Below are positions 37,703-38,630 of a stretch of DNA of 64,000 nt, in pieces. Numbering within the stretch: the stretch's first letter is position 1; each line of letters begins with the position of its first letter. Made by a program: the position numbers and the translations under genes. The stretch comes from Nitrosomonas eutropha (GTDB lineage Bacteria; Pseudomonadota; Gammaproteobacteria; Burkholderiales; Nitrosomonadaceae): the NCBI RefSeq assembly GCF_003201195.1, contig NZ_QICQ01000002.1:62001-126000 (forward strand), written 5' to 3'. Below the pieces are notes generated by a model, which did not search any database, had not been told where the DNA came from, and saw nothing but the letters and a program-made list of their open reading frames with translations.

Positions 37703-37941
37703 AGCTATCCCCGAAAAAGACAGCTGAAATTATCGCATATTCAATCTGTAAAAAACGCCATCCAGCATCAACTGCTATGCCGACGCGCTAAATGCCCCCA
37801 AAAACTTCAAGCCACTGGCTGGCCTGAGATATAATTCACAGCAAAATCTACAGAGCAGAATGCCGATTTGTCTAACACCGATTACTCACAGGACATCTAT
37901 GGCACGCGTAGCTTCAGGATGGTTAACATCCAGATAAAAAT

Positions 37942-37949
37942 AAAGGAGG
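37942..37949 (+). promoter_or_regulatory. Strong Shine-Dalgarno site that fixes the adk start at an ATT codon
   Basis: AAAGGAGG ends six bases before ATT 37956. The adk frame has a TAA at 37941-37943, so no ATG, GTG or TTG lies between that stop and the conserved RIILLGAPG. The strong site with ideal spacing points to the ATT as the initiation codon. Confidence 0.8.
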
Positions 37950-37955
37950 CCAATC

Positions 37956-38630
37956 ATTCGTATCATCTTACTAGGCGCACCAGGCGCGGGCAAAGGCACG
38001 CAGGCAGGTTTTATCCGCGAACATTTTTCAATTCCACAGATTTCCACCGGCGATATACTCCGCAATGCTGTAAAAGCAGGAACCGAGCTAGGCATAATGG
38101 CAAAAAAAATCATGGAATCTGGCGGCCTGGTTTCGGATGAAATCATTATTGATCTGGTCCGACACCGAATTGAAGAACCTGATTGCACTAACGGCTTTTT
38201 GTTTGATGGCTTCCCCCGCACCATTCCTCAGGCCGATGCACTTAGAACGGCCAATGTGCATATAGACTATGTCATCGAAATCGATGTGCCTGATGCTGAG
38301 ATCATAAAACGTTTATCAGGCCGCCGCGTACACCCGTCCTCGGGCCGGATTTACCATATTGAATTTAACCCGCCAGCAGTTGCTGATCGGGATGATGTGA
38401 CTGGCGAAGCGCTGGTTCTGCGTGATGATGACCGGGAAGAAACCGTGCGCAAACGTCTGCAGGTCTACCATGAGCAGACTCAGCCATTGGCTGGATACTA
38501 CCTTGAATGGTCAAACAGTAGCGATCCCGATGCACCAGGTTACGTCAAAATTGCCGGAACCGGCAGCGTGGAAACCATACAGGAAAATATTCTCGCAGCG
38601 CTCAAACAAACAGGACAAGCGCTTCTTTGA
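37956..38630 (+). CDS. adk: Adenylate kinase with an apparent ATT start codon
   Basis: A 224-residue adenylate kinase (AMP + ATP to 2 ADP). The P-loop [10 protein letters not shown] is at residues 7-16, the AMP-site ISTGDILR near 30, GFPRT near 84, and a long LID segment follows with [18 protein letters not shown]; the LID lacks zinc cysteines. The universal beginning MRIILLG appears here as ATT CGT ATC ATC TTA CTA GGC, with a strong Shine-Dalgarno sequence six bases before the ATT. An upstream in-frame stop rules out a longer protein. Either AUU is used, as in infC, or the base is a mutation or error. Confidence 0.92.

Follow-up and report, generated by a model that had tools for sequence, protein, structure and literature searches.

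Bacterial genes known to start with a codon other than AUG, GUG or UUG are few according to the passages of PMC5472188 and PMC9410913 that deal with them, infC being the widespread case; infC and pcnB are the precedents for starts of the AUH class, i.e. AUU, AUC or AUA (PMC9410913). In Streptomyces, sigR starts with GTC and is repressed by IF3 (PMC5472188), and in vitro, the share of full-length peptide made from AUU with the CAU anticodon becomes smaller when more IF3 is present (PMC10158994). A literature search covering openly licensed PMC papers found no report of an AUH start in adk. Every adk copy that we read from the Nitrosomonas family of betaproteobacterial ammonia oxidizers carries an AUH codon in place of the expected AUG, which suggests that translation initiation of this gene is held back or regulated, as in infC. 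The family-wide extent of this start is new here and goes beyond the preliminary description of the locus.

The start site of adk in Nitrosomonas eutropha

The window, that is, the whole stretch of DNA that was analysed, comprises 64,000 nt of Nitrosomonas eutropha (contig NZ_QICQ01000002.1 of assembly GCF_003201195.1, positions 62,001-126,000 of the forward strand). It contains the gene for adenylate kinase (Adk), which is essential in E. coli, with the following features:

37941-37943, + strand: in-frame TAA stop upstream of adk, ending the frame five codons ahead of ATT
37942-37949, + strand: Shine-Dalgarno (SD) sequence AAAGGAGG, separated from ATT by six bases (37950-37955)
37953-37955, + strand: ATC codon directly 5' of ATT, which would be an alternative AUH start but is spaced by only 3 nt from the SD
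37956-37958, + strand: ATT initiation codon of adk; AUH is found at this column in 121 of 121 matched family genomes
37956-38630, + strand: adk, adenylate kinase, 224 aa plus stop (PF00406, E = 7.4e-55)

The frame reads TAA AGG AGG CCA ATC ATT CGT ATC ATC TTA CTA GGC and continues beyond GGC with GCA CCA GGC GCG GGC AAA GGC ACG CAG; its translation contains the P-loop GxPGxGKGTQ, and the match to the PF00406 profile scores 185.8 bits against a cut-off of 26.8. Downstream of the in-frame stop, no ATG, GTG or TTG precedes the P-loop, and the earliest in-frame canonical codon is the ATG at 38097, which is codon 48 and lies past the P-loop. Because the stop at 37941 closes the frame and the first ATG comes only after the P-loop, an intact Adk cannot be made from any canonical start in the window; the gene thus has a start other than AUG, GUG or UUG and lacks a usable canonical one. 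The preliminary description had read adk as starting with a non-canonical ATT, with AAAGGAGG six bases before it and with upstream starts blocked by the TAA; all three readings hold, and its coordinates were right, the codon proper being 37956-37958. It had also named a second functional adk as one finding that would undo this reading. A PF00406 search of the whole genome (2.67 Mb in 85 contigs, 99.99% complete) returned a single adk match, and the 950-bp adk DNA occurs in one copy.

The genome groups with Nitrosomonas. In the named-locus listing, which may omit the window's own records, the closest Adk (96% identity in 135 residues) is that of the MAG "N. eutropha BJ4", followed by that of N. 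eutropha Nm24 at 95% and that of N. europaea ATCC 25978 at 91%.

Distribution of AUH starts within and outside the family

A protein search of the family Nitrosomonadaceae matched 121 of 125 genomes, and the start region was examined in all 121 (in L161, from a partial gene); the adk match was absent in four genus-mates that are 75-91% complete. Codon 1 is ATC in 67 genomes, ATT in 37 and ATA in 17, and none of the 121 carries ATG, GTG or TTG at the Met-1 column, i.e. the non-canonical class is conserved in the lineage in every matched genome (121 matched of 125). The AUH class is kept across four genera, here g1 to g4: the 81 genomes of g1, which is Nitrosomonas judging from the names of matched loci, comprise 44 ATC and 37 ATT, the 23 of g3, which we take to be Nitrosospira, all have ATC, and g2 and g4 have ATA throughout (8 and 9 genomes, respectively). 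An SD-like motif is located 4-10 nt ahead of codon 1 in 117 of the 121 genomes (GGAG or GGGG in 116, GAGG only in one), that is, a strong Shine-Dalgarno at normal spacing; the four members without it form one clade (support 0.943). The neighbouring genes recA and pfp served as controls in 46 genus-level loci, a set in which some genomes appear twice because they come from two collections: an ATG start was seen for recA at all 46 loci and for pfp at each of the 45 where this gene was located.

The codon preceding codon 1 takes 14 different forms across the 121 genomes (ATC in 30, GCT in 29, ATA in 14, ATT in 10, ACC in 10, and nine others). Given this lack of conservation, the ATC at 37953-37955 is a less likely start than ATT. 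In g3 (L171-L193), adk opens with three AUH codons in a row (ATC, followed by ATA, ATC or ATT and finally ATC or ATT) and Arg-2 is missing, such that the start could be the first or the second of these, being AUH either way; the surrounding sequence, aata ATC ATA, is similar to that of g2 and g4 minus one codon. A second adk-like match was seen in L162 (G048:C32; 45% identity, ATG start) and another, a 72-residue partial, in G124:C77; these extra matches are possibly contamination, which is listed at 6% for G048.

Ammonia monooxygenase was found in 11 of 25 entries (3 of 3 in g1, 3 of 8 in g2, 3 of 3 in g3, 2 of 9 in g4, and neither of two from the nearest outgroup family) and was undetected in many g2 and g4 draft genomes. 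Since all four genera have members with this enzyme, the AUH start of adk coincides with the family of ammonia oxidizers.

Outside the family, no AUH start was observed among the 38 order, 29 class and 62 named loci that were read. The order search matched 388 of 399 genomes, 13 of them from the family; among the other 375, 38 mostly high-scoring loci were examined, of which 37 start with ATG and one has an in-frame ATG five codons upstream. The class search matched 134 of 140, and the best 29 loci other than the window's have ATG (27) or GTG (2). Of 78 named loci, the 16 closest to Nitrosomonas adk, which are not independent of the set of 121, comprise 12 ATT and 4 ATC; the remaining 62 comprise 48 ATG, 5 TTG, 3 GTG, 5 in which a canonical codon is located upstream at a distance of two to five codons, and one broken frame. 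The earlier claim that an ATT start is unusual for adk is thus strongly supported, with 0 AUH among the loci read outside the family.

To look for further AUH-start genes, 464 kb of the genome itself and 400 kb from G079 were scanned by coding score. Besides adk, this flagged one dubious frame under the stricter threshold (268 and 258 gene-like frames, respectively) and two under the looser one (375 and 318); recall in simulations was only 19-23%, with infC scoring below detection, so that the scan says little about the specificity of AUH to adk. A comparison of orthologues between the two stretches (28 non-overlapping pairs) yielded nine flags, among which only adk was convincing by eye; five of the other eight fall in a near-identical stretch of C11. 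In this stretch (G000:C11, ~11-22 kb; L335, L336), many frames are ~90-100% identical to those at ~339-349 kb of G079, against ~85% for adk of the two, and it may be mobile and have been shared recently. Searching plasmids with Adk contributed nothing further.

Possible function and origin of the AUH start

We consider it reasonably probable that the conserved AUH start, being discriminated against by IF3, holds Adk synthesis at a low level and/or couples it to the IF3:30S balance. The AUH codon (AUU here) would be positioned by the strong Shine-Dalgarno and read, with a third-position mismatch, by the ordinary initiator tRNA (CAU), which would place fMet there. Initiation would be inefficient and IF3-sensitive, the properties for which the AUH class would have been retained since the family ancestor, and Adk output would be low and/or would track the ratio of free IF3 to 30S subunits, like that of infC. 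From the analogy with infC, sigR and the in vitro IF3 titration, IF3 would be expected to restrain initiation at the AUH codon of adk, and the sensitivity of this start to IF3 in these cells appears likely; a regulatory benefit, beyond low output alone, is a good deal less certain, though conceivable. More speculatively, IF3 might control an energy enzyme in this way, the AUH start coupling equilibration of the adenylate pool to the IF3:30S ratio, and a small regulon including infC might link the capacity for translation with the energy charge in organisms subject to repeated starvation and recovery.

A limit set on adk by initiation fidelity, through IF3, would fit the conserved AUH class and the start of infC in the window genome, where this gene (L219) begins with ATA behind GGAGG. 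Across the family, the window genome included, infC starts with AUA in 30 and with AUC in 2 of 39 loci (32 of 39), and 7 were not parsed. Within the genus, 18 of 20 infC starts are non-canonical (16 ATA, 2 ATC), with no canonical codon ahead in frame, and 2 were not parsed, one chance motif match each having been dropped in L220 and L217; among the loci of the other genera, ATA is the start in 14 of 19, one of these with a GTG far upstream, and 5 were not parsed. At ~1450-1485 of L219, a seven-codon ORF (ATG GAT TTA CGG AGG GTA CCA TAG) overlaps with its end the ATA start of infC, and coupling is possible. Tyr-75 and the RGRE region matter for IF3; in the window genome, the IF3 frame is intact and the protein looks ordinary. 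The initiator tRNA, with anticodon CAU and a GGG/CCC anticodon stem, looks ordinary as well. An unusual initiator tRNA was rejected as a candidate: from 41 tRNA matches, 30 were taken as loci and 29 of these run through ARAGORN, which yielded three CAT tRNAs, one with initiator features.

An alternative account, which keeps some weight but which we judge unlikely, is that the AUH start is real and merely sets a constant low output of Adk, without regulation by IF3. A strong SD joined to a weak start would set such an output, the AUU start of E. coli pcnB is described as limiting its translation (in a title cited in PMC9410913), and the use of all three AUH codons perhaps indicates that only inefficiency matters. 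However, a weaker SD or a GUG or UUG start would serve equally, and GUG and UUG occur at codon 1 in 0 of 121 genomes; furthermore, an AUH start should be IF3-sensitive if IF3 behaves as it does in E. coli.

We regard it as improbable that the start is a frozen accident, inherited from the family ancestor with the SD compensating fully and with no selection either way. In a maximum likelihood tree of the proteins (43 family and 38 outgroup genes), all 43 family genes form a single clade (support 98) from which every outgroup gene is excluded; thus, one origin of the AUH start is sufficient, as an accident would have it. In the nucleotide tree of adk, five ATG outgroup genes (L229, L230, L231, L234, L245) group with g2-g4 (support 0.945), their exact position beside g2 having support 0.0; taken at face value, this tree implies two origins or one reversal of the AUH start, and we prefer the protein tree on this point. 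When the nucleotide tree was pruned to the family (120 genomes, L161 left out), at least 10 changes of the third base of codon 1 were counted, never to G, which speaks against neutrality. All 33 fourfold sites of adk carry G in at least one genome, although these sites undergo about threefold more changes (mean 30 vs 10) and the comparison with codon 1 is not rate-matched. The accident gains some room from neutral simulations of sites that change about equally often (8-14 times), in which G was absent in about 1-29% of runs, depending on the rate and the transition bias. Published reconstructions weigh against it, favouring changes to AUG: start-codon changes toward AUG outnumber those away from it, and 1 of 61,358 ancestral AUG starts switched to AUU (PMC5622118). 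These patterns are suggestive of selection against AUG at codon 1 of adk.

It is highly improbable that translation of adk begins elsewhere, whether at an upstream canonical codon, at a downstream TTG or through a frameshift from an upstream frame. GTG or TTG does occur within 12 codons upstream in 14 of the 121 genomes (TTG at −7 or −8 in nine, GTG at −4 in four and at −2 in one), and the first downstream canonical codon is codon 5 or 6 in 35. However, the interval between the stop and codon 1 lacks any canonical codon in 82 of 121 (in 38, there is one somewhere upstream in frame, and L202 runs off the fetched DNA), and the nine upstream TTG codons lie 5' of the SD, the spacing of which suits codon 1. 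An Adk started at codon 5 or 6 would presumably lose its first strand; in the other genomes, the first downstream canonical codon is codon 11 (one genome) or falls between codons 34 and 48 (85 genomes: codon 34 in 78, codons 47-48 in 7), in those 85 past the P-loop. Exceptions are the four-genome Nitrosomonas clade without an adk SD (L147, L151, L157 and L159 of G038, G062, G033 and G039), with an in-frame GTG (GTG AAA GAA ...) at −4 relative to their ATT or ATC, and L190, with an in-frame GTG two codons upstream of codon 1. To judge from these sequences, both may have shifted to a GTG start with a short extension, which in the four-genome clade would be a possible return to a canonical start with four additional residues. 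Upstream ORFs ending near the adk start gave no signal of coupling (73 of 121 in the family vs 27 of 38 in outgroups), RNA folds around the start showed nothing unusual in five Nitrosomonas sequences (z from −1.27 to 1.59), and the sole match in a promoter scan was on the minus strand. Finally, comparison of the start in relatives, which the preliminary description had proposed, rules out a sequencing or assembly error in the window genome, AUH being present in all 121 matched family genomes, several in single contigs, including the named strains N. eutropha Nm24 (L033), N. europaea ATCC 25978 (L034) and N. nitrosa Nm90 (L037). We are highly confident that AUH is the start codon of adk.

Comparison of adk with infC, pcnB and sigR

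If the family keeps AUH on adk, control by initiation fidelity would extend past translation factors and sigma factors, and, provided that our reading of a start held back by IF3 is true, adk would offer a case in which an action of IF3 on metabolism can be tested directly. In practical terms, gene finders limited to AUG, GUG and UUG may truncate the Adk of these nitrifiers, codon 34 being the next canonical codon in 78 of 121 genomes.

Among the known systems, adk resembles infC, which is under IF3 autocontrol, in that an AUH start follows a purine-rich SD and is conserved over a wide group. It differs from infC in two respects: the product of adk is not a translation factor, so that an autoregulatory loop is impossible, and the AUH start of adk is confined to one family among the loci read. 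With pcnB of E. coli, which is translationally limited (PMC9410913), adk shares AUU on an enzyme gene outside translation; however, pcnB is nonessential (PMC9410913), whereas adk encodes a central energy enzyme and its AUH start is kept in four genera. The start of sigR is GUC rather than AUH, and its repression by IF3 is experimental (PMC5472188), whereas that of adk is proposed by analogy. Nevertheless, adk and the sigR gene of Streptomyces have in common a non-canonical start that is conserved in a lineage, preceded by a strong ribosome-binding site and located in a gene other than infC (PMC5472188).
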